The notes beneath the pieces were generated by a model. That model did no database searches. It was not told the origin of the DNA and worked only from the letters and a program-made list of their open reading frames with translations. From positions 558,001-622,000 of the forward strand of contig BPGU01000002.1 in the NCBI GenBank assembly GCA_026003195.1: a DNA stretch of 64,000 bases, given 5' to 3'. Shown here piece after piece: positions 6,418 to 61,525 of the stretch. This DNA is from Armatimonadota bacterium. GTDB taxonomy: Bacteria; Armatimonadota; HRBIN16. Position 1 is the stretch's first letter. Each line of letters begins with the position of its first letter. Position numbers and translations under genes: made by a program.

Positions 6418-7176
6418 TCACTCTGTCATACCCTCAGGGTCTACACCCAGCTCGCGCAACCGCCGAGCCAGCTGCTCTGCCCGCAGGCGTGCCTGCTCTG
6501 CCTCCCGCTGCGCCTGCTCCGCCCGCTGACGCTCCTGCTCTGCCTCCCGCTGCGCCTGCTCCGCCCGCTGACGCTCCTGCTCTGCCTCCCGCTGCGCCTG
6601 CTCCATCCGTCGGTGCAACTCCACATAGGGGATAAAACGCTCCCCGTTAGGACGGTACAGCACCAGCGCATCTCCTTCCAACGTGAACCGTACGCCCAGC
6701 AGCGGGCTGACCCAGCCCTCCATCTGTTCCACGGGCTTCAGGTCGCCCTCTTGGCGAATCCAGCCATCCAGCACGCCCCGGTCGGGGTCGTACAGATAAT
6801 ATTCCTGCACTCCGTACTGCCGGTAGAACAGGTACTTCTCGATCAGGTCGGAAGGACGATTGCTGGGGGAAAGCACTTCCAACACCACCTGTGGAGCGAC
6901 GCCGTCTTCTTCCCACTGCTTGTAGGAGGGACGATGTCCCTTGGGGCGCCCCAACACCACCATCACATCGGGAGCAGTGCGGATTTCAGGATGCCCTTCC
7001 ACGGGGTACCAGAAGAGGTCAGCCGCCACAAACACGTCCTCACGGTCGGCAAAAAGCGCGCAGAGGTTATCGTAAAGATACACAATCGCTTCCAGCTGCT
7101 TGGTATTATCCGCCATCGGCTTGCCGTCGCTTTCCGGGTAAACGATTTTGGGTTTGCTCGTCGGGTGTACTGCCAT
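6418..7176 (-). CDS. Uma2 (DUF820) family PD-(D/E)XK nuclease-like protein with coiled-coil tail
   Basis: Residues 1-185 match the Uma2/DUF820 fold: PDVMVVLGRPKG, then VVLEVLSPSNRPSDLIEKYLFYRQYGVQEYYLYDP. These hold the acidic and lysine residues of a PD-(D/E)XK core. The last 60 residues are a highly charged coiled coil built from a 14-residue repeat (AQREAEQERQRAEQ) that is a direct DNA repeat. Uma2 proteins are very abundant in cyanobacteria and Armatimonadota, and their biological role is unsettled. ATG 7176 is preceded by GAGGAAAA and by an extended -10 promoter (7194-7202). tatC follows directly. Confidence 0.88.
   Translation of the reverse strand: MAVHPTSKPKIVYPESDGKPMADNTKQLEAIVYLYDNLCALFADREDVFVAADLFWYPVEGHPEIRTAPDVMVVLGRPKGHRPSYKQWEEDGVAPQVVLEVLSPSNRPSDLIEKYLFYRQYGVQEYYLYDPDRGVLDGWIRQEGDLKPVEQMEGWVSPLLGVRFTLEGDALVLYRPNGERFIPYVELHRRMEQAQREAEQERQRAEQAQREAEQERQRAEQAQREAEQARLRAEQLARRLRELGVDPEGMTE
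6493..6604 (-). repeat. 42-bp tandem repeat coding for the Uma2 coiled coil
   Basis: There are about 2.7 almost identical copies of a 42-base unit, beginning at 6493, 6535 and 6577. Each unit encodes 14 residues rich in Glu, Arg, Gln and Ala. Copy number is likely to vary by slippage without breaking the frame. Confidence 0.95.
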
Positions 7177-13208: not shown

Positions 13209-13299
13209 TTGGACCTACCCCCTAGCCCCCTTCCCTACGAGAGAAGGGGGAAAAATACACCCCTCTCCTCGCAGGAGAGGGGATGGGGGGTGAGGTCAC
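13209..13299. repeat. Composite palindromic repeat, copy 1
   Basis: Two hairpins lie side by side. One pairs CCCCCTTC (13226-13233) with GAAGGGGG (13243-13250). The other is a perfect 10-base stem, CCCCTCTCCT / AGGAGAGGGG (13260-13269 and 13273-13282), with loop CGC. Flanking C-rich and G-rich tracts are shared with the copies at 21258, 34742 and 61453. This copy ends exactly at the stop codon of the chemoreceptor gene and may also act as its transcription terminator. Confidence 0.85.
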
Positions 13300-19685: not shown

Positions 19686-21242
19686 ATGGCGGAGTGGATA
19701 CAGGCTTTCGGTCAGCGCAAGAGATGGCGCAGGATGTTTCAGGCGGTCAACGGGAGACCGCTGGCGGCCTTCTGTGGCGGCTACCTGGCGGGAGCCGCAG
19801 CAGGCGTGACGTTCCCTGTGCTATCGGTATTACAGGGATGCTGCCTCTGCACCGCTACCGGGTGGCTCCTCTGGCGCTACCGGGTGCTTTCCGCATCTAT
19901 AGCCTTTTTGATGTTAGCAGGGGTGTGGTTGGGTGCAACGCAGGGCATTCGCGCCGCGACACAGGATGAACTGCTCTGGCGTACCTTGCCAAGTGATCAG
20001 GTGATGGTTGTCGAGGGAGTTGTGCTGACCGAACCGGTGAAAAAAGCGGGCGTGTGGCGGTTTGTGTTCCGTACGGAGGGACTGTTGACCGCGCAGGGTA
20101 CGCTTCGATCGCCGGTGCAGCTGTGGGTACACGTACGGGAAACGCTGATAGAGGACGTATTTGCGGGCGAGCGATTGCGTCTGGAAGGCAGGCTCAGAAC
20201 ACCCTCTGCCACCCCGGGCGATCCCGAAGGCTCTTTTGCGCGTTACCTGCGCAGGCAGGGAGTCTCCAGAACCCTGCGCCCCTATCGTGTCGAGCGGCTA
20301 CCGCAGGCGCGATGGACTATCCTTTTCTCCCGCTGGCGGCGCACGCTCATACGCCATCTGCGCTCCCACCTGCCCACCCGCGAAGGGCATGTCGCTGCCG
20401 CCATTGTGCTCAACGACCGCACCGGACTGGACGACCAGATCCGCGAAAGATTCCGACGCACCGGCACGGTGCATATCCTCTCGCCCTCAGGCACGCATGT
20501 CTCCATGCTGGCGTTTGCTGTATGGGCATTATGCAGGTTCATCAGGCTATCACGCAGGACTTCCGCGCTGGCGGTTATTACGGTTATCTGGCTGTTTGCA
20601 GGTGTGGCTGCAGGGGGCGAACCCGCTTTCCGTGCCGCCGTGATGGGCACTCTAGTGGCGGGATCGGTAACTCTGCAGCGCGAGCTAGACCTGCCCACCT
20701 CGCTGGCTCTCGCAGGTTTTCTGCTGGTATGCGCAGAGCCCGGCACTCTGCGCGACCCCGGCTTTCAGTTCTCCTTCACGCTGGTCGCTGCCATTATCGC
20801 TTCCTCAGGGTGGCTGGGCGCCATTGCTTTCCGCGCAACAGACGACAGAATCACCCTGTTCAGGAGTATCTTTGCCAGCCTGCTCCTCAGCGGGGTATGC
20901 ACGGTGGCGTCCGCACCGCTCACCGCGTTATACTATGGTCAAATGTCGCTCATTGCGCCCGTCGCCAACCTGGTTATTGCCCTACCGGTACAGCTGCTCA
21001 CCAGCGCAGGGCTGGCAGCCGCCTGCCTGCCTCAGCTGCCCGAGATTCTGTGCACACCGATAGCGGCAAGCGCGTGGAGTGTGGACAGGGCGGTGCGCTG
21101 GCTCGCCATGCCTCCGTGGGCAAGTGTGGACGTTTCTGCCCCTTCGAGGTGGCATATCATTCTGTTCTATGCACTGCTCTTCACCGTGTTACTCACCCTG
21201 AGCGCACGTGTCGATCGGCGCAGGAGAGGATGGGCATGGTGA
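19686..21242 (+). CDS. ComEC/Rec2-type DNA-uptake channel protein without the metallo-beta-lactamase domain
   Basis: ComEC carries single-stranded DNA across the inner membrane during transformation. The 518-residue product has N-terminal membrane segments, a DUF4131-like OB-type region (VVEGVVLTEP, GERLRLEGRL), then the Competence domain with the signature RRTGTVHILSPSGTHVSML and GFQFSFTLVAAII. It stops after the membrane domain, so the C-terminal metallo-beta-lactamase nuclease found in many ComECs is absent; shorter ComECs of this kind are known. The ATG is 6 bases after the GH9 stop and has a weak ribosome site. The end overlaps the LptD-like start by 7 bases. Confidence 0.88.
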   Translation: MAEWIQAFGQRKRWRRMFQAVNGRPLAAFCGGYLAGAAAGVTFPVLSVLQGCCLCTATGWLLWRYRVLSASIAFLMLAGVWLGATQGIRAATQDELLWRTLPSDQVMVVEGVVLTEPVKKAGVWRFVFRTEGLLTAQGTLRSPVQLWVHVRETLIEDVFAGERLRLEGRLRTPSATPGDPEGSFARYLRRQGVSRTLRPYRVERLPQARWTILFSRWRRTLIRHLRSHLPTREGHVAAAIVLNDRTGLDDQIRERFRRTGTVHILSPSGTHVSMLAFAVWALCRFIRLSRRTSALAVITVIWLFAGVAAGGEPAFRAAVMGTLVAGSVTLQRELDLPTSLALAGFLLVCAEPGTLRDPGFQFSFTLVAAIIASSGWLGAIAFRATDDRITLFRSIFASLLLSGVCTVASAPLTALYYGQMSLIAPVANLVIALPVQLLTSAGLAAACLPQLPEILCTPIAASAWSVDRAVRWLAMPPWASVDVSAPSRWHIILFYALLFTVLLTLSARVDRRRRGWAW

Positions 21243-23551
21243 GGCAGGAAGCTGACTTGAACCTTACCCCCGTCCCCTCTCCTACAAGGAGAGGGGTGTA
21301 TGCACATTCCCCCTTCCCTCGCAGGGAAGGGAGGCAGGGGGTTCGGTTCATCCTCCTTCTCGCTGTCATATGGTTCTTGTGCACGAGTGCTGTCTCAGCC
21401 CAGCAAGCCGAATCGCCTGCTTCACCCCAGCGCAAGGTGGAACGTCTGGATGTGGAGCGGTTCGGCACGCTCTTCCTGGACGCACGCAACAACCTGCAAG
21501 CCACCGACATCCTCGCCCGCTGGCGCGAGTACACCATCCAGGCAGAGAGCGTGGAGGGCAATCTGGACAGAGGCGAGTACCTGTTTCAGGGCAGGGTCAC
21601 TCTGGAGGGCGGTGGGCTGGATGCGCATGGTGAGATGCTCCGCCTGAACGTGCGCCGACGCCTGTGGCAGATGGAGGGCGCGGGAGCGGACCTCCTGCCC
21701 GAGTTTCTCAAAAACCAGCTGCGCGGCACAGTGCGCCTGTCCGGTCAGCAGTTGCAGGGAGAGCAACAACAGGCGCAGATGCAGCACGGCGAACTGACCA
21801 CCTGCTTGCTGGAGCATCCGCATTACCACTTTTCCGCTGGTAGCGTGGACGTGGTGGTGGATAAGCGTCTGATTGCACGAGGGGTCAGCCTGAACGCGCT
21901 CGGCAGGAAACTGTTTACCCTGCCCACACTGGTAGTGCCTTTGGACAGACGCCTTTCACGGGGCACCCTGCCTCAGGTAGGACAATCGGTGGAGGAGGGG
22001 TATTACGTCAAGACCGCGCTGGGCTACCTGCTGGGCGACAACGCGGGTACGGCGCGCATCGACCTGATGCAGAAAAAGGGTATCGGGCTGGGCGTAGACC
22101 AGCAATATCTGTGGAAGGGAGCGGCAGGGCTGCTCTCGCTGTACTACCTGAACGATCGCAGTCGCGCTACCCGCTCCGTCACCGCCCAGCTGCGCCACGA
22201 GCAGCAGCTTTTCGGTTTCAACGCGCGGCTCACCGGCGACCTGCGCTCCGGCAGCTATCTCTACTACTCCGACACCCGCGCCTCCAGCTGGCAGCTGAGT
22301 TTCAGCAGAGCATGGTCGTCAGGCAATCTGTCCATTCTCTCGCGCCTCAGTCAGCAAAGTAGTGCAGGTTATTTGAGTGATTCCTCTACAAATTCGCTCC
22401 GGTGGAACCAGCGCTGGGGTACGCGCGCCTCGCTCACCTTTTCTACCGACCTGTCGCGTTTTCGCTCCCAATCGGGTGGAGCAGTGCGCTCCCAGCAAGA
22501 GCAACTCGCCACGCAGGCGTCGCTGAGCGGCAGCAGCAGCAAGTTTGACTGGAGCCTCGCTTTCAACCGGATTATCCCCATTGGCGGGCAGACAGGAGGC
22601 TTCACTTTTGGCGGCATAGAAAAGACGCCCGAACTGCTCCTTTCCACCACCGACCGCCGTCTGTTCGGCAAAGACATGGGGCTACACATGCAGTTCGGGT
22701 TCGGCAGTTTTCGCGAGCTGCCGCAGGGCAATCCCATCCAGCGCATCCTGTTTGAAGCCCGCTGGAACCCTGTGACCTCCAGCGCAGGTAAAAGCTCGCT
22801 GAGCACCTCCGCCCTCTTCCGGCAGGTGTTCACCAGCGACGGAACCGCCCAGTACATCCTGCAGGGCAATACCGACTGGCAGGTGCGCTTTGGGCAAAAC
22901 AGCCGATGGTACGCGAACTACCGTTATCTGCGTCCATATGGCTTCACCCCCCTGCGCACGGAGTATACAGGCACAACCAATTTCGCCTCAGCGGGGCTGG
23001 AGTGGAACGCCAGCCGTGCGCTGTCCATCCGCGCGTATACGGGATATGACCTTTTTGCCCGACAGCGCGGCAGCCGACCCTGGCAGCCGCTGAATCTCGG
23101 CTTGCAGTGGCAACCGAACCCTGCATGGCAACTGAACGTGCAATCCACGCTGAACCTCAATGAAGGACAGTGGAACTATCTGCGGGCATACCTGCGCGCC
23201 CGCACCGATGCTTTCTCGATGAACCTGAATGGCGTGTACGACCCTATCCGCCATCGCTGGGCGAGCGCGAACCTGTGGCTGGACACGCAGCTGTTCCGAA
23301 CGCCCCTGCGCGTGCAAACGGTGGTGACCTACAACGGCTACGTGAACCGCTTTGAGGGCAGGCAACTGTTGCTCACCTGGGATTTGCACTGCTGGGAGAT
23401 GAGCGTAGGGTATATTGACAACCCGCTGGGCTTCCGCACCGACCGCGAAGTGGTTTTCCGTTTGCGGATTAAGGCTTTCCCGGAGGCACAACGGTTCGGG
23501 GTGGGACAGTTCGGGCAGTCGCTGGAGACGGGCGGAGGATGGGCTTATTAA
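21236..23551 (+). CDS. LptD/OstA-like outer-membrane beta-barrel protein whose N-terminus is a translated repeat
   Basis: The protein has about 771 residues. A signal segment (RFILLLAVIWFLCTSAVSAQQ) sits at residues 36-56. An OstA/LptA-like domain follows at about 70-240 (ARWREYTIQAESVEGNLDRGEYLFQGRVTLEGG). A long beta-barrel-like region fills the rest, with alternating residues and many aromatic girdle positions. LptD inserts LPS at the cell surface; this divergent form suggests a diderm envelope. ATG 21236 has AGGAGAGG upstream and overlaps comEC. Residues 6-35 are encoded by a palindromic repeat (21258-21347). GTG 21296 inside it, preceded by AAGGAGAGG, is an alternative start. Confidence 0.8.
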   Translation: MVRQEADLNLTPVPSPTRRGVYAHSPFPRREGRQGVRFILLLAVIWFLCTSAVSAQQAESPASPQRKVERLDVERFGTLFLDARNNLQATDILARWREYTIQAESVEGNLDRGEYLFQGRVTLEGGGLDAHGEMLRLNVRRRLWQMEGAGADLLPEFLKNQLRGTVRLSGQQLQGEQQQAQMQHGELTTCLLEHPHYHFSAGSVDVVVDKRLIARGVSLNALGRKLFTLPTLVVPLDRRLSRGTLPQVGQSVEEGYYVKTALGYLLGDNAGTARIDLMQKKGIGLGVDQQYLWKGAAGLLSLYYLNDRSRATRSVTAQLRHEQQLFGFNARLTGDLRSGSYLYYSDTRASSWQLSFSRAWSSGNLSILSRLSQQSSAGYLSDSSTNSLRWNQRWGTRASLTFSTDLSRFRSQSGGAVRSQQEQLATQASLSGSSSKFDWSLAFNRIIPIGGQTGGFTFGGIEKTPELLLSTTDRRLFGKDMGLHMQFGFGSFRELPQGNPIQRILFEARWNPVTSSAGKSSLSTSALFRQVFTSDGTAQYILQGNTDWQVRFGQNSRWYANYRYLRPYGFTPLRTEYTGTTNFASAGLEWNASRALSIRAYTGYDLFARQRGSRPWQPLNLGLQWQPNPAWQLNVQSTLNLNEGQWNYLRAYLRARTDAFSMNLNGVYDPIRHRWASANLWLDTQLFRTPLRVQTVVTYNGYVNRFEGRQLLLTWDLHCWEMSVGYIDNPLGFRTDREVVFRLRIKAFPEAQRFGVGQFGQSLETGGGWAY
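21258..21347. repeat. Composite palindromic repeat, copy 2, inside a coding region
   Basis: Two perfect stems are present. CCCCTCTCCT / AGGAGAGGGG spans 21274-21283 and 21287-21296. CCCTTCCCT / AGGGAAGGG spans 21311-21319 and 21323-21331, with loop CGC. The module order is reversed relative to copy 1. The repeat is read in frame as the N-terminal extension of the LptD-like protein. Confidence 0.85.
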
Positions 23552-34692: not shown

Positions 34693-34741
34693 CAGGACGC
34701 TCCGAACCACGCCAGCAAGTGAGATCAGGAGAGAAGTAATT

Positions 34742-34852
34742 CCCCTACCTCCGAGGAGAGGGGAGTTGCCCCCCTTCCCTCGTAGGGAAGGGGGGCAGGG
34801 GGTTAGGTCCAACATCACCTCTCCCCCAACCCCTCTCCCACTGGGAGAGGGG
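34742..34852. repeat. Composite palindromic repeat, copy 3 (largest)
   Basis: Three dyads in a row. The first is imperfect, around 34742-34763. The second is a perfect 12-base stem with loop CGT (34769-34780 and 34784-34795). The third is a perfect 10-base stem CCCCTCTCCC / GGGAGAGGGG (34830-34839 and 34843-34852). The spacer reads GGGGGTTAGGTCCAAC, the reverse complement of the left edge of copies 1 and 4. Together with the small HTH gene it fills the 550 bases between purL and the FGE-fusion gene. Confidence 0.9.
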
Positions 34853-34892
34853 AGCACGCATTCGCGAGAGGCAGGTGTACCCTTCACCCAGT

Positions 34893-40301: not shown

Positions 40302-43300
40302 ATGAACACAGGCAGATGGTTCGCATGTGTTCTTTGCGTGTTGTGGGCGACTTTGCTCCTCGCGCCGTTCTCCCAGGCGCAAGAAGAGACCAACGTGCCC
40401 GCGCTCACTTCGCTGGCGGCACGTGCTTCCCTGCGAGCTGCTGTTGAAAAACGACAGGCGGAAGAGTGGGCGAAGCAACGTGGCTTGCCGGTGCGCCGCA
40501 AACTCCCCAACGGCGCGATGATGGAAATCATGGCGGTACGCAACGGAGTACCTGTCTACTATGTTACAAATGGAGTGGAAACTGCTGATTCCCTCAGCGC
40601 AGATGAGCTATGGCCAGGTGGTTCCACCGGACTGAATCTGACCGGTGTAGGAGTCGTGCTGGGGGTATGGGACGCTGGTGCAGTAGACCCCTCTCACCCG
40701 GAGTTTCGGGGACGGCTCCGCATTCGCGATGGTGCCGAACCGGACGACCATGCAACGATGGTGGGAGGTATCCTGGCTGCAGCTGGAGTAGACCCGCGCG
40801 CCAGAGGAATGTCCTTCGCTGCCAGTCTGGACAGCTACGATTGGGACAGCGACACCTCTGAAATGGCAGATGCCGCCCGTGCTGGGCTACTGGTATCCAA
40901 CCACTCCTATGGGATTGTTTCGGGATGGCTGGGTGACTTTCTCTGGACAGGCGATACCACCATCAGTCAGAGAGAGGACTGGAAGTTTGGTTTCTATGGC
41001 GACTGGTCGCAGGAGTGGGACCAGATAGCTTATAATGCCCCCTACTACCTGATTGTGCAGGGAGCGGGTAACGATCGCGGAGAAGGTCCCTCGTCGCAAC
41101 CCGTGCAGCACTATCATCTCGACGGTCAAACGTATTCCGATAGCCACGACCTGGATGGAGGAGCATCCGGCTTTGATTGTATCCCCTACTCGACCACTGC
41201 GAAGAATACCCTCGTGGTCGGGGGTGTTTACCCCATCCCTGGAGGATACGCAGGACCTGATAGCGTGCGCATGACCAGCTTCAGTAGCTGGGGACCTACC
41301 GATGACGGTCGTGTGAAGCCCGATCTCGTGGGCATCGGCACGGATGTATACACGACCTTTATCGGGGGATATGGCATGGGCGGCGGCACCTCGGCAGCTT
41401 CCCCCAGCGTTGCGGGTGCACTGGGGCTGCTGATCCAGCATTACCGGCAGACTCACGGTGGCGCGAACATGCGCTCCGCCACCCTCAAGGCGCTGGCTAT
41501 CCACACCGCTGACGAGTGCGGACCTGCCCCCGGACCCGACTACATGTTCGGCTGGGGTATCCTGAACGCCAAAACCGCCGCGCAGGTCATCTCGGAGAGC
41601 GTGAAAAACCCGTATGCGATTCAGGAGCGTACCCTGCGTAACGGCGAAACGCATACCATCCGCGTGGTCTCCGACGGCACTCAGCCCCTGAAGGTCACCA
41701 TCGTCTGGACAGACCCGCCGGGCACGCCGCCACCAGTCTCGCTGGACCCGCCCGACCGCATGCTGGTGAACGACCTGGACCTGCGCGTGACCAACGGTAC
41801 CACCACCTATATGCCCTGGGTGCTGAACCCGGCGAACCCTGCCGCTCCCGCTACCACCGGCGATAACGTGGTGGATAACGTCGAGCAGGTGGTTGTGCCT
41901 CATCCGCAGGCGAGCGTGTACACCATCACTGTTACCCACAAAGGTATCCTGCGACCGGCTGGCAGACAGGCGTACTCGATGATTGTCACCGGCGCGGTGA
42001 CGCATACCCTGCAGGTGAACTCCAGTGACCCGGACAGCGGTGTGGCTATTACCGTATCACCGAACGACATCAACGGACAGGGCGACGGCTCCACGCCGTT
42101 CACCCGTGTGTACGATGGCGGCACGCAGGTGACACTGACCGCCCCTGCCACCGCGCCCAATGATAACGTGTTCATCAAGTGGGTGCGTGACGGAGCAGAC
42201 TTCTCCACGAACCGCACCATCACCCTGACGATGGACGCCGATTACACCCTGACTGCGGTGTACGAGTTTATCTCGCCGGTTCCGGTGCTGCTACAGCCGA
42301 CGGCGAACGCCGTTGTCTCGCCGACGCCTACCTTCCGCATGAAGGCGACCTCTTCGCCCGGCGCGAGGATGAAGTACAAAGTGGTCATCTATCAGGGCGA
42401 CCAGCAGATAGAGGTGTTCGACCAGAGCACCGACACCACCGGCTGGAGCAAGCCCGACTACGCCAGCGGCGAGGAGGCAGTGTTGACCGTTCCCGCTTCG
42501 CGAGCGCTGCCGACCGGCGTGTTGTACTGGCAGGCGTTCGCTTACGACGGCATCAAGTGGAGCGAGGGCAGCGATAAGCGCAGGATGGTGGTCAACCGGA
42601 TGCCCAATGCGCCGGTGCTGGTCAGCCCGGCAGCAAACGCTATTGTGCTGGGCACGCCGACGTTGACAGTACGCGCTGCCGACGCTGACGCTACCGACAC
42701 ACTGAAATACAAAATCATCTTCACGCGCAACGGCACCACCGTCGCCACCTTCGACCAGACGGTGGACACGACCGGCTGGAGCAAACCCGGCTACGCCAGC
42801 GATGAAGACGCCACACTCACTGTGCCGTCACACCGTGCGTTGAACCCTGGCACCTACCAGTGGCAGGCGTTCGTGTACGATGGCAAGCAATGGAGCGATG
42901 GTAGCGAGAGCCGAACGCTCGTCGTGAACTCCGCGCCATCTGCTCCTGACCTGATAGAACCTGCAGGCGGTAGCTTCGTGTCGCACACACCCACCTTCCG
43001 CCTGCGCGCCACCGACGCCAACGGCGACAACCTGCAGTACAAAATCGTGGTGAAGCAGGCAGGACAGGTGGTGGCTACCTTTGACCAGAGTGTGGACACC
43101 ACCGGCTGGAATAAGCCCAGCTACGCCAGTGGTGAGGAAGCGGTATTCACCGTGCCGGCAGGCGCATCGCTGGCAACGGGCGCGTATCAGTGGCAGGCGT
43201 TCGCTACCGACGGCAGGCAATGGGGCAACGGCAGCTGGGAGCGTGCCTTCACCGTAGACCAGGCTCCCGAAGCGCCGGAGATTCTCACCCCCGCTGCCGG

Positions 43301-44891
43301 AGCGGTCACATCACCCACGCCGGAGATTCGCCTGCGCTCTACCGACGCCGACCTGTCCGACGGTCTACGCTACAAGCTGGTGCTCTCCAGAGGCGGTCAG
43401 CAAGTAGCGGTGTATGACCAGAGCGTGGATACCACCGGCTGGAATAAGCCCAGCTACGCCAGTGGCGAGGAAGCGATCTTCCGCCTGCCTGCAGGCAGTG
43501 CGCTCAGCGCAGGAAACTACCAGCTGGAAGCATACGCCAGCGACGGACAGCAGTGGAGCAACGCGGGGAGCCGCTCCTTCAAGGTGTCCGCCAGAGTGCC
43601 CGCAAGGCTGGTGGGCGTGGGTACCTTTGCAGTGAACCTTGCTCTGCCAGATGCCAGCAAGAGTGCGATCGGTGCTGCGGGGGTGCCCATGAAGGTATGG
43701 AACGCCAGCACACAGTCGTATGTGGATGCGGGCAACAACCTGCTTATCGGCGTGGGCTACTGGTACAGCGCGGCACAGCCGGCTGCGCTCCGCATTGCGG
43801 GCAACGAGTTGCCCATTTCCTTCCCGATTGCCCTGAAGCGCGGCTGGAACTTCATCGCCAGCACCTCCGCCGACCCGGTTGTGTGGGACGTGAACGCTAT
43901 CAAGGTGCGTCGGCAGGGCGAGGAGGTCACCCTGCGACAGGCACGACAATCAGGGTGGATAGAAGACCACGCCTGGGGCTGGCTACAGGATGGCGCGAAC
44001 CCGACAACCGGTCGCTACGTGCTGGTGTATGACCCGTTGCGGATACCCGGCGCGGTGAACACCATCGAGCCGTGGCGAGGCTACTGGGTATATGCCCACG
44101 AGGAGTGCGAACTGCTGCTGAAGCCGTCCGATGGGGTGATACCGAACGTCACGCGCGCCCCGTCGGCGACTGCCAGAGCCTGGTCGGTGCGTCTGCTGGT
44201 TCAGTCCGCTTCCGGCAGCGCAGAGGCGGTATTCGGTGCAAACGCCTCCGAAAACATCGCCATCGGTCTACCTCCCGATCCGCCGGCAGCTTCCGCTGCA
44301 CCGAAGGTGATTCTGGTGCAGAACGGTCAGCCGCTGGCGGTGGATGTGCGTGCGGAGAGCCGCGCCAGCACACCGTGGGAGGTGAAGGTACAGATTCCCG
44401 CAGGCAACGAAGGCACTGCCACGCTCTACTGGCAGGGTGTGCATCAGGCGCCTCGCACGGTGACCCCGGTGCTGGTAGACCTGCAAACCGGCGAGCGTCG
44501 CTTCCTGCGCACGACCAGCTCGCATACCTTTGCGGTCAGCCGACAGGGTGGTGTGTACCGCTTCCGCATCGAGATGGCTCCGCAAAGCGGACTGCTCCGC
44601 CTGTCGCAGGTGCGGGTGAGCGGTGGACGCAGCACCAGTGGACGCTACACCGTCTCGTTCCACCTCAGTGCCAGCGCACAGGTGGAGGTGAACGTCTTCT
44701 CCGCAGGGAAGCTGGTGCGCCGGTTGACCGGCGGCGCTTCACGCTTGGCAGGTATCCAGCAAATCACATGGGATGGACGTGATGCGAACGGCGTTGCCCT
44801 GCCCGCTGGTAGCTATACGGTGGAGATCAAGGCGGTCAGCGCGGACGGGCAGGTGGCTCGCAGCACGGTACCCATCACGCTGACACGGTGA
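40302..44891 (+). CDS. Large secreted S8 (subtilisin-family) protease with four Ig-like repeats
   Basis: The 1529-residue protein has a signal peptide (WATLLLAPFSQAQ). The catalytic domain holds Asp124 (GVWDAGAVDPSHPEF), His150 (DDHATMVGGIL), Asn in QGAGNDRGEG and Ser364 (GGGTSAASPSVAGA). A P-domain-like sandwich and an InlB-type repeat (VTLTAPATAPND) follow. Next come four approximately 105-residue repeats of the form DTTGWSKPDYASGEEAV...YWQAFAYDG. The end is a FlgD-like Ig module (AGIQQITWDGRDANGVALPAGSYTVEI), as in many anchored exoenzymes. AAGGAGG lies 11 bases before the ATG, with a consensus promoter upstream. Confidence 0.94.
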   Translation: MNTGRWFACVLCVLWATLLLAPFSQAQEETNVPALTSLAARASLRAAVEKRQAEEWAKQRGLPVRRKLPNGAMMEIMAVRNGVPVYYVTNGVETADSLSADELWPGGSTGLNLTGVGVVLGVWDAGAVDPSHPEFRGRLRIRDGAEPDDHATMVGGILAAAGVDPRARGMSFAASLDSYDWDSDTSEMADAARAGLLVSNHSYGIVSGWLGDFLWTGDTTISQREDWKFGFYGDWSQEWDQIAYNAPYYLIVQGAGNDRGEGPSSQPVQHYHLDGQTYSDSHDLDGGASGFDCIPYSTTAKNTLVVGGVYPIPGGYAGPDSVRMTSFSSWGPTDDGRVKPDLVGIGTDVYTTFIGGYGMGGGTSAASPSVAGALGLLIQHYRQTHGGANMRSATLKALAIHTADECGPAPGPDYMFGWGILNAKTAAQVISESVKNPYAIQERTLRNGETHTIRVVSDGTQPLKVTIVWTDPPGTPPPVSLDPPDRMLVNDLDLRVTNGTTTYMPWVLNPANPAAPATTGDNVVDNVEQVVVPHPQASVYTITVTHKGILRPAGRQAYSMIVTGAVTHTLQVNSSDPDSGVAITVSPNDINGQGDGSTPFTRVYDGGTQVTLTAPATAPNDNVFIKWVRDGADFSTNRTITLTMDADYTLTAVYEFISPVPVLLQPTANAVVSPTPTFRMKATSSPGARMKYKVVIYQGDQQIEVFDQSTDTTGWSKPDYASGEEAVLTVPASRALPTGVLYWQAFAYDGIKWSEGSDKRRMVVNRMPNAPVLVSPAANAIVLGTPTLTVRAADADATDTLKYKIIFTRNGTTVATFDQTVDTTGWSKPGYASDEDATLTVPSHRALNPGTYQWQAFVYDGKQWSDGSESRTLVVNSAPSAPDLIEPAGGSFVSHTPTFRLRATDANGDNLQYKIVVKQAGQVVATFDQSVDTTGWNKPSYASGEEAVFTVPAGASLATGAYQWQAFATDGRQWGNGSWERAFTVDQAPEAPEILTPAAGAVTSPTPEIRLRSTDADLSDGLRYKLVLSRGGQQVAVYDQSVDTTGWNKPSYASGEEAIFRLPAGSALSAGNYQLEAYASDGQQWSNAGSRSFKVSARVPARLVGVGTFAVNLALPDASKSAIGAAGVPMKVWNASTQSYVDAGNNLLIGVGYWYSAAQPAALRIAGNELPISFPIALKRGWNFIASTSADPVVWDVNAIKVRRQGEEVTLRQARQSGWIEDHAWGWLQDGANPTTGRYVLVYDPLRIPGAVNTIEPWRGYWVYAHEECELLLKPSDGVIPNVTRAPSATARAWSVRLLVQSASGSAEAVFGANASENIAIGLPPDPPAASAAPKVILVQNGQPLAVDVRAESRASTPWEVKVQIPAGNEGTATLYWQGVHQAPRTVTPVLVDLQTGERRFLRTTSSHTFAVSRQGGVYRFRIEMAPQSGLLRLSQVRVSGGRSTSGRYTVSFHLSASAQVEVNVFSAGKLVRRLTGGASRLAGIQQITWDGRDANGVALPAGSYTVEIKAVSADGQVARSTVPITLTR
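42274..43590 (+). repeat. Four tandem approximately 330-bp coding repeats in the subtilase
   Basis: The units encode Ig-like/fibronectin-like modules. They begin near PVLLQPTANAVVSPTPTF, PVLVSPAANAIVLGTPTL, PDLIEPAGGSFVSHTPTF and PEILTPAAGAVTSPTPEI. DNA around the DTTGW(S/N)KP motif is strongly conserved in all four, which suggests recent duplication or gene conversion. Confidence 0.85.
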
Positions 44892-60850: not shown

Positions 60851-61452
60851 GAGCCATACCACTACAACCTCCACGCTGGAAACAGGTGCTGGAAACGGTA
60901 CTGCCGCTGGCGCTGGCAGTGCTGGCGGTGCAGTTGAAAGGCATACTGCGCCATGCCGGAGGCACCAGCGTCTCGACGCTGCTGCTGGCACTGGTCGTCA
61001 TCGCCTTCCTGATACCGCAACTGCGACGTTACACGCTGGTGGTAATCTGCTTCGGCGTCTGCGTCTTCGCTGTACACCGCACCTGGGAAGGCATCCGGGT
61101 GGTGGACTGGCAGGAGGCAGTGTGGACGGATTACGCCTTTATCCTCATGTGGTTAGGCATCGCTCTGTGGAGCGGGTTGGCAGGGATCGGAGAGGTGTGG
61201 TTCGGGAGCCCACGGTGGTCGCAACAGAGCTATCTGCTGGCGGTTGCGCTGTATTTTATCGGGCATGGCGGCTCGGAATGGCTACAGGGCAAGCGCGCGC
61301 CCGCTTTGTTTCTCTTGCTGGTGGGTGTGGTCGCATTAGGCGGCGCATGGTGGATAGGAGGCAGGAGAACACCCATGCCCGAGACAGCACCTCTTCGGAG
61401 CCGACGGCGCGTCCGCTGGATTCACGAATCCTCCTCGTCGGAGGAGAGGTGA
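60847..61452 (+). CDS. Multi-pass membrane protein, unknown function
   Basis: The 201-residue protein has about six hydrophobic segments (VLPLALAVLAVQL, LLLALVVIAFLIP, LVVICFGVCVFAV, FILMWLGIALWSGL, LLAVALYFIGHGG, LFLLLVGVVALGGAW) and a basic, serine-rich end. I recognise no family. The GTG 60847 start overlaps the preceding stop. The longer frame upstream reads inside the unknown gene and is not supported. A repeat copy begins right after the stop. Confidence 0.65.
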   Translation: MRAIPLQPPRWKQVLETVLPLALAVLAVQLKGILRHAGGTSVSTLLLALVVIAFLIPQLRRYTLVVICFGVCVFAVHRTWEGIRVVDWQEAVWTDYAFILMWLGIALWSGLAGIGEVWFGSPRWSQQSYLLAVALYFIGHGGSEWLQGKRAPALFLLLVGVVALGGAWWIGGRRTPMPETAPLRSRRRVRWIHESSSSEER

Positions 61453-61525
61453 TGTTGGACCAACCCCCTGCCCCCCTTCCCTCTGAGGGAAGGAGGAAAT
61501 GCATGCTTCCCCTCTCCTCAGAGGA
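61453..61525. repeat. Composite palindromic repeat, copy 4
   Basis: GTTGGACCAACCCCCTGC matches the left edge of copy 1. A CCTTCCCT / AGGGAAGG stem (61465-61472 and 61476-61483) and a truncated CCCCTCTCCT half follow. It sits between the stop of the membrane gene and the stop of the convergent GxGYxYP gene. Confidence 0.8.

Follow-up and report, generated by a model that had tools for sequence, protein, structure and literature searches.

How does a palindromic repeat come to be tolerated within the first codons of a gene for an envelope protein, and what becomes of the peptide that it encodes? This question is raised by a stretch of DNA from an Armatimonadota bacterium (the window; 64,000 nucleotides of contig C2 of the 4.58-Mb genome G000, which like all genomes compared here is a draft), in which such a repeat lies between the start codon and the signal peptide of an OstA/LptD-like gene. 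This gene is packed directly behind a comEC-like gene, the stop codon of which (21240-21242) overlaps the start region of the LptD-like reading frame within the sequence ATGGTGA. The features of the locus are as follows.

19686-21242, plus strand: comEC-like gene (Competence PF03772 and DUF4131), the upstream partner
21236-21238, plus strand: ATG, the likely start of the LptD-like reading frame, positioned relative to the comEC stop as are the starts of element-less orthologues
21261-21347, plus strand: palindromic element (BLAST, covariance model), 29 codons translated as LTPVPSPTRRGVYAHSPFPRREGRQGVRF
21261-21271, plus strand: 5′ arm of the outer stem, ACCTTACCCCC, pairing with 21337-21347
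21337-21347, plus strand: 3′ arm of the outer stem, GGGGGTTCGGT
21274-21296, plus strand: hairpin 1, CCCCTCTCC-TACAA-GGAGAGGGG, containing the SD-like AAGGAG at 21286-21291
21296-21298, plus strand: in-frame GTG, a proposed alternative start, unconserved, its first base being the last paired base of hairpin 1
21309-21333, plus strand: hairpin 2, CCCCCTTCCCT-CGC-AGGGAAGGGAG
21350-21400, plus strand: h- and c-regions of the signal peptide, ILLLAVIWFLCTSAVSA, assigned by eye, with probable cleavage before QQ
21401-23551, plus strand: mature LptD-like protein

The LptD-like identity of the gene is supported at the level of sequence by a partial match to the NCBIfam LptD model (E 3.7e-6, below the curated cut-off) and by the match of a profile of 15 orthologues to a solved LptD structure (8h1r in the PDB; 1.5e-12), and an LptD_N domain is present in four of 15 members of the orthologue group. 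From the ATG at 21236, the frame is open through the element and into the signal peptide, as the original prediction had it, such that the N-terminus reads MVRQEADLN, then the element-encoded LTPVPSPTRRGVYAHSPFPRREGRQGVRF, then ILLLAVIWFLCTSAVSA followed by QQ; the roughly 30 residues that the repeat was expected to add are encoded by 29 codons. Between the element and the h-region there is no in-frame ATG, GTG or TTG. The repeat, which had been placed at 21258-21347, is real, with its limits now corrected to 21261-21347, and it is palindromic as an element of three helices rather than as one palindrome.

It is useful to consider what kind of element this is. The 87-bp copy at lptD (94.6 bits, E 2.5e-18 with the covariance model) belongs to a repeat family that BLAST finds at 42 places in its own genome and the covariance model at about 70 distinct sites (E<=1e-3). 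Its members are GC-rich, 77-91 bp long and typically about 85 bp, and have an outer stem enclosing two hairpins; the consensus is ACCTCACCCCC-GTCCCCTCTCCTACGAGGAGAGGGG-(variable spacer)-CCCCCTTCCCTCGCAGGGAAGGGGG-NN-AGGGGGTTAGGT, running from ACCTCACCCCC to GGGGGTTAGGT over about 85 bp. The 11-nt outer arms are terminal inverted repeats, as in MITEs. Each of the ten genomes of the genus has copies, and most other families have few or none. Comparison with known RNA families gave microRNA models at chance level only, with scores under the gathering threshold, and these were rejected. The majority of the copies in G000 are intergenic, many of them between genes on the same strand, and those elsewhere in the window, identified with the covariance model unless stated, are of this kind.

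13213-13296, minus strand: element copy, intergenic
34735-34876, plus strand: two degenerate tandem element copies, intergenic
61430-61518, minus strand: element copy identified by BLAST, near-intergenic, with the start coordinate set by eye to the full element length

The RAYT transposase (Y1_Tnp), considered and rejected as a mobiliser, has no match in G000 and gives weak single matches in five of ten congeners, and in the search for target-site duplications the empty sites were highly diverged. Identical copies in the congener G005 had been considered as a guide to element boundaries and target duplication; these sit inside a separate 186-bp MITE and are therefore uninformative about the element's own insertion. 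This MITE, which has the ends GAGGGTGTTCGA/TCGAACACCCTC and makes target duplications of 9 bp, took up the palindromic element and then spread, reaching no fewer than 40 nearly identical copies in G005 (L189-L228); it is also present at L106 in G000. Many of its target duplications adjoin TTGAC(A/T), the hexamer of -35 promoter boxes, an indication that it inserts beside promoters. Other repeats were also observed in the window: a 165-nt stretch that occurs four times at 42408-43568 (spaced 330-333 nt apart and 64-73% identical to the reference copy) and may encode tandem protein domains, and a 21-nt tandem repeat at 6472-6609, detected as five 54-nt matches that overlap, which may be coding and heptad-like.

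The strand at 21261-21347 folds strongly (-70.6 kcal/mol, z -3.4), inviting the proposal that the element matters as RNA, that is, as a REP-like hairpin between two operon genes by which lptD expression or mRNA stability is adjusted, its translation being incidental. The mostly intergenic distribution, with many copies between same-strand genes, fits this proposal, as does the known ability of REPs to act in such a way (PMC3733652). However, covariation in the pairing does not exceed that in shuffles, and hence there is no sequence sign of selection on pairing, which is kept as conserved sequence; moreover, an RNA role leaves unexplained the restriction to signal-peptide genes and the in-frame arrays described below. 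We therefore consider a primary role as RNA rather unlikely, although it is compatible with the n-region explanation that we favor.

Comparison with orthologues shows what the N-terminus looks like in the absence of the repeat. In four congeneric genomes (G001, G002, G004 and G007), lptD has no element; its start codon shares bases with the comEC stop (GTGA or ATGA), and the h-region follows 3-12 residues on. At the same site, an in-frame element is present as one copy in G009 and as two in G003, and lptD of G008 has no recognisable copy. An orthologue with the same N-terminus and no similarity to the repeat was sought as a refutation, and none was found. The prediction that the repeat is translated as the N-terminus is upheld by these same-genus orthologues, whose starts are at the corresponding codon, and by the absence of any start between the element and the h-region. 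Based on this distribution, the element inserted at lptD in the ancestor of the group comprising G000, G003, G005 and G009, or did so more than once, with later changes in copy number. In G005, lptD (L010) carries seven tandem copies in a broken frame: a G-run at each copy join shifts the frame, and no ATG, GTG or TTG leads in frame into the h-region, such that the gene is disrupted unless the assembly is in error. The G-runs could mark a slippage-switched locus or an assembly error. At this locus, which is on the reverse strand, the comEC frame continues into the first copy of the element, extending its C-terminus by about 36 residues.

A start codon inside the element must also be weighed. 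The AAGGAG just before the in-frame GTG is present as described in the original prediction, which proposed that the repeat may have supplied a new ribosome site; in that case the element would provide a new start and not an N-terminal extension. The motif is 4 nt upstream of the GTG at 21296, and the product, MYAHSPFPRREGRQGVRF-ILLL, would retain an element-encoded n-region. Yet this GTG is absent from the in-frame lptD copies of G003 and G009 and from three single-copy, sense-strand fusions in other genes (L098, L103 and L083), the AAGGAG forms the 3′ arm of hairpin 1 with the first base of the GTG also paired, and the original ATG/GTG start, at the overlap with the comEC stop, is still in place. 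The lack of conservation and the burial of the motif in a stem speak against a new ribosome site as the general explanation; a start at this GTG, which we think improbable, may apply to the lptD-like gene alone and does not explain the pattern across genes. Far less credible still is a start at TTG 21377, the first start-like codon past the element, which would make the element an untranslated leader: it would halve the h-region and leave an outer-membrane protein without a signal peptide, whereas all orthologues have one. We infer that translation starts at the ATG at 21236.

Viewing lptD as a single case is incomplete, as this gene is one of at least nine fusions of the same type, all before signal peptides. 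Every element site found in G000 was examined with a home-made codon-usage gene caller applied over genome stretches, and signal peptides were assigned by eye. In seven unrelated genes of G000, the element lies in frame directly before the h-region with no start codon between them: these are the genes for LptD, a glycoside-hydrolase-like protein (L083), a lipoprotein (L105; LASC) and a secretin-like protein (L091), together with L098, L103 and L078, and in L078 and L091 the element is in antisense orientation. All seven encode a signal peptide, an outcome with a chance probability of 7e-4 when 36% of genes, a deliberately permissive share, are counted as signal-peptide-like. When other congeners were searched with a profile, G003 and G009 yielded two more groups (L294/L295 and L296/L299), bringing the total to at least nine fused gene families, all predicted to be exported, and each fused group has congeneric element-less orthologues with an ordinary short n-region. 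Among the G000 element sites and in the relatives, there was no non-exported N-terminus fused to the element without a later start. In non-exported genes and some others, among them Era, a pilin, L104 and L074, an element in the 5′ region is followed by an ATG or GTG and is leader.

Several candidates did not survive inspection, and the pattern has limits. Possible fusions before Era, pilin, L084, L088 and L095 were rejected on account of an ATG of their own downstream of the element, and L297 was set aside as ambiguous, with a possible start downstream of the element. G001 and G002 showed no signal-peptide fusion at their 55 top-ranking element sites, indicating that the habit is confined to a subclade and is not a property of every genome that bears the element. 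Mature parts of proteins can take the element too, given that it lies just after the cleavage site in L076 and inside an enzyme gene in L086. Also observed were half elements in three L103 orthologues (L171, L173 and L177), where only the first hairpin (TSPPTPLLRGEG) is in frame before the h-region, and a secretin-like gene of G008 (L156) in which the element and the start of the h-region (SALTRLALLLH / SILTCLALLLL) are seemingly duplicated to give two half signal peptides in a row. L105 and its counterpart L179 (G000 C2:207-210 kb and G005 C2:580 kb) share more than 1 kb of identical sequence, including two element copies, in genomes whose other genes are about 90% alike; this identity marks a recent transfer between the two species, and a substitution test on the pair was dropped as it holds no information.

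By hand count, an upstream start leads into an open frame in 33 of the 36 element-bearing alleles. Of the site-frames at other element copies, 21% combine an open frame with such a start, a comparison that is indicative only, as alleles share ancestry (two of the 36, L105 and L179, being nearly identical by recent transfer) and groups were found via an open member. The remaining three, lptD of G005 (L010), L164 and L167, lack a canonical in-frame start ahead of the h-region; G-run assembly indels or non-canonical starts could account for these, or the genes may be broken. A further allele, L147, has a TAG within its mature part. In several relatives the element has formed in-frame tandem arrays of three to five units: four 114-nt units in L132 of G005, from an MRDTSFK start that is followed by a single copy in G000; five 108-nt units in L299 of G003, from a start followed by a single copy in G009; and three copies in L151, from MRRVIGN. 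No start codon lies between MRDTSFK and the h-region of L132, and export of this protein would therefore require translation of about 150 element-encoded residues.

In Sec signal peptides, the n-region can be of varying length, requires positive charge and is cut away with the rest of the signal peptide, and these properties underlie the tolerance that we propose. Specifically, a high-copy palindromic element would have inserted in frame in the first codons of the lptD-like gene behind comEC; translation would begin at the old ATG, coupled to the comEC stop, and continue through the element; the lengthened signal peptide would still be recognised by the export machinery; and signal peptidase would cut off the element-encoded peptide, leaving mature LptD unchanged. 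Near the start of packed genes, only in-frame insertions in a dispensable part would survive, and in exported proteins this part would be the n-region. A cleaved n-region that is tolerant of arginine and of length would be among the few sites of a packed operon at which an in-frame 85-bp insertion is nearly neutral, explaining the repeated survival of the element at such sites. We consider it probable that the insertion is tolerated in this way, with the element peptide serving as a long, net-positive n-region that is removed by signal peptidase. For the other fused genes we likewise infer start codon use, export, cleavage and neutrality.

The charge of the fused n-regions is in keeping with what such a region needs. 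The usual reading of the element ends in REGGQGVRF, which brings an arginine next to the h-region; net charges range from 0 to +9, most being +2 to +7, as compared with +1 to +7 without the element. In LptD, the fused n-region of about 38 residues has a net charge of +4 and ends in Arg-Phe before the h-region. It could be argued that long, arginine-rich n-regions are adaptive, altering export targeting or timing as is thought for the extended region of autotransporters, and were kept and amplified for this reason; the recurrence in nine families, the in-frame amplification to three to five units in several relatives and the arginine at the n/h border would all be in line with this. Against it, presence differs among close species, the element-less orthologues look normal, the fused genes have no common protein function, tandem repeats expand anyway and some copies look decayed (L140, L172), and we are doubtful that adaptation is the explanation. 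Returning to a tolerated, cleaved n-region, a broader and more tentative extension, which we would not yet favor, is that signal-peptide n-regions are a 'safe harbour' in the proteome into which a mobile repeat is repeatedly recruited, and where in-frame amplification may produce exported n-regions of 100-170 residues, far beyond those of known bacterial signal peptides, with a possible effect on export. The restriction of the N-terminal fusions to signal peptides itself gives a simple rule for the coding-DNA niches open to selfish repeats, namely the parts that get cut off. The fused genes and their orthologues also offer, in nature, signal peptides graded in n-region length from 3 to about 170 residues, in which the tolerance of the export machinery for length and charge is directly testable.

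It is informative to examine these fusions in light of other repeats and extensions found at N-termini. In-gene palindromes have hitherto been viewed as insertions that mature proteins tolerate, and those at N-termini were suspected to be errors of annotation; here, the absence of a later start codon forces translation through the element, and a partial literature search found no report of a repeat recurrently acting as an n-region. REPs of the GTAG/CGTC families are likewise palindromic and mostly intergenic, with some in ORFs and an excess at NH2 termini, where the Di Nocera 2013 survey suspected many to be untranslated, as translation may start downstream (PMC3733652). In contrast, the present fusions have no start downstream of the element, and while REPs are 20-40 bp long, carry a GTAG/CGTC tag and often have a RAYT, the element is about 85 bp long and lacks the REP tag and unit. 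In Yersinia, one protein has a signal peptide that is partly a YPAL/RU-2 repeat (Delihas 2007, PMC2759123), a single striking case in which RU-2 gives hydrophobic sequence, whereas the present element gives a charged n-region in at least nine families. The ESPR of autotransporters is also a charged extension ahead of standard n-, h- and c-regions (PMC2805444), but it is a conserved protein feature of about 25 residues, and the present extension is repeat-derived, absent from orthologues and up to about 170 residues long. Likewise, the BKC-1 beta-lactamase owes an unusually long signal peptide to a recent DNA event, a 16-residue duplication (PMC8262980); there the h-region was duplicated, whereas here a mobile repeat was inserted.

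The original prediction had drawn a likeness to the in-gene palindromic elements of Rickettsia. These RPEs, and with them the WPE of Wolbachia, are also short, high-copy palindromes that are found both between genes and in frame within them, with stop-free frames. They occur in unrelated metabolic genes, largely in mature proteins (PMC10969869, PMC2229807), and RPE-1 copies at NH2 termini are reported as expressed (PMC3733652, citing earlier work). In-frame insertion is common to both, but the present element is slightly shorter (77-91 bp, about 70 copies, versus about 100-150 bp), has what is probably a different sequence and resides in an uncultured hot-spring Armatimonadota host outside the Rickettsiales, the closest named records being hot-spring MAGs of the HRbin16 type; furthermore, its N-terminal fusions are all at signal peptides. 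The likeness holds as a way of working and fails as to the fate of the peptide, which, with at least nine fusions all before signal peptides, should be removed and discarded rather than kept in a mature envelope protein. The element behaves like the palindromic elements of Rickettsia but is not one of them.
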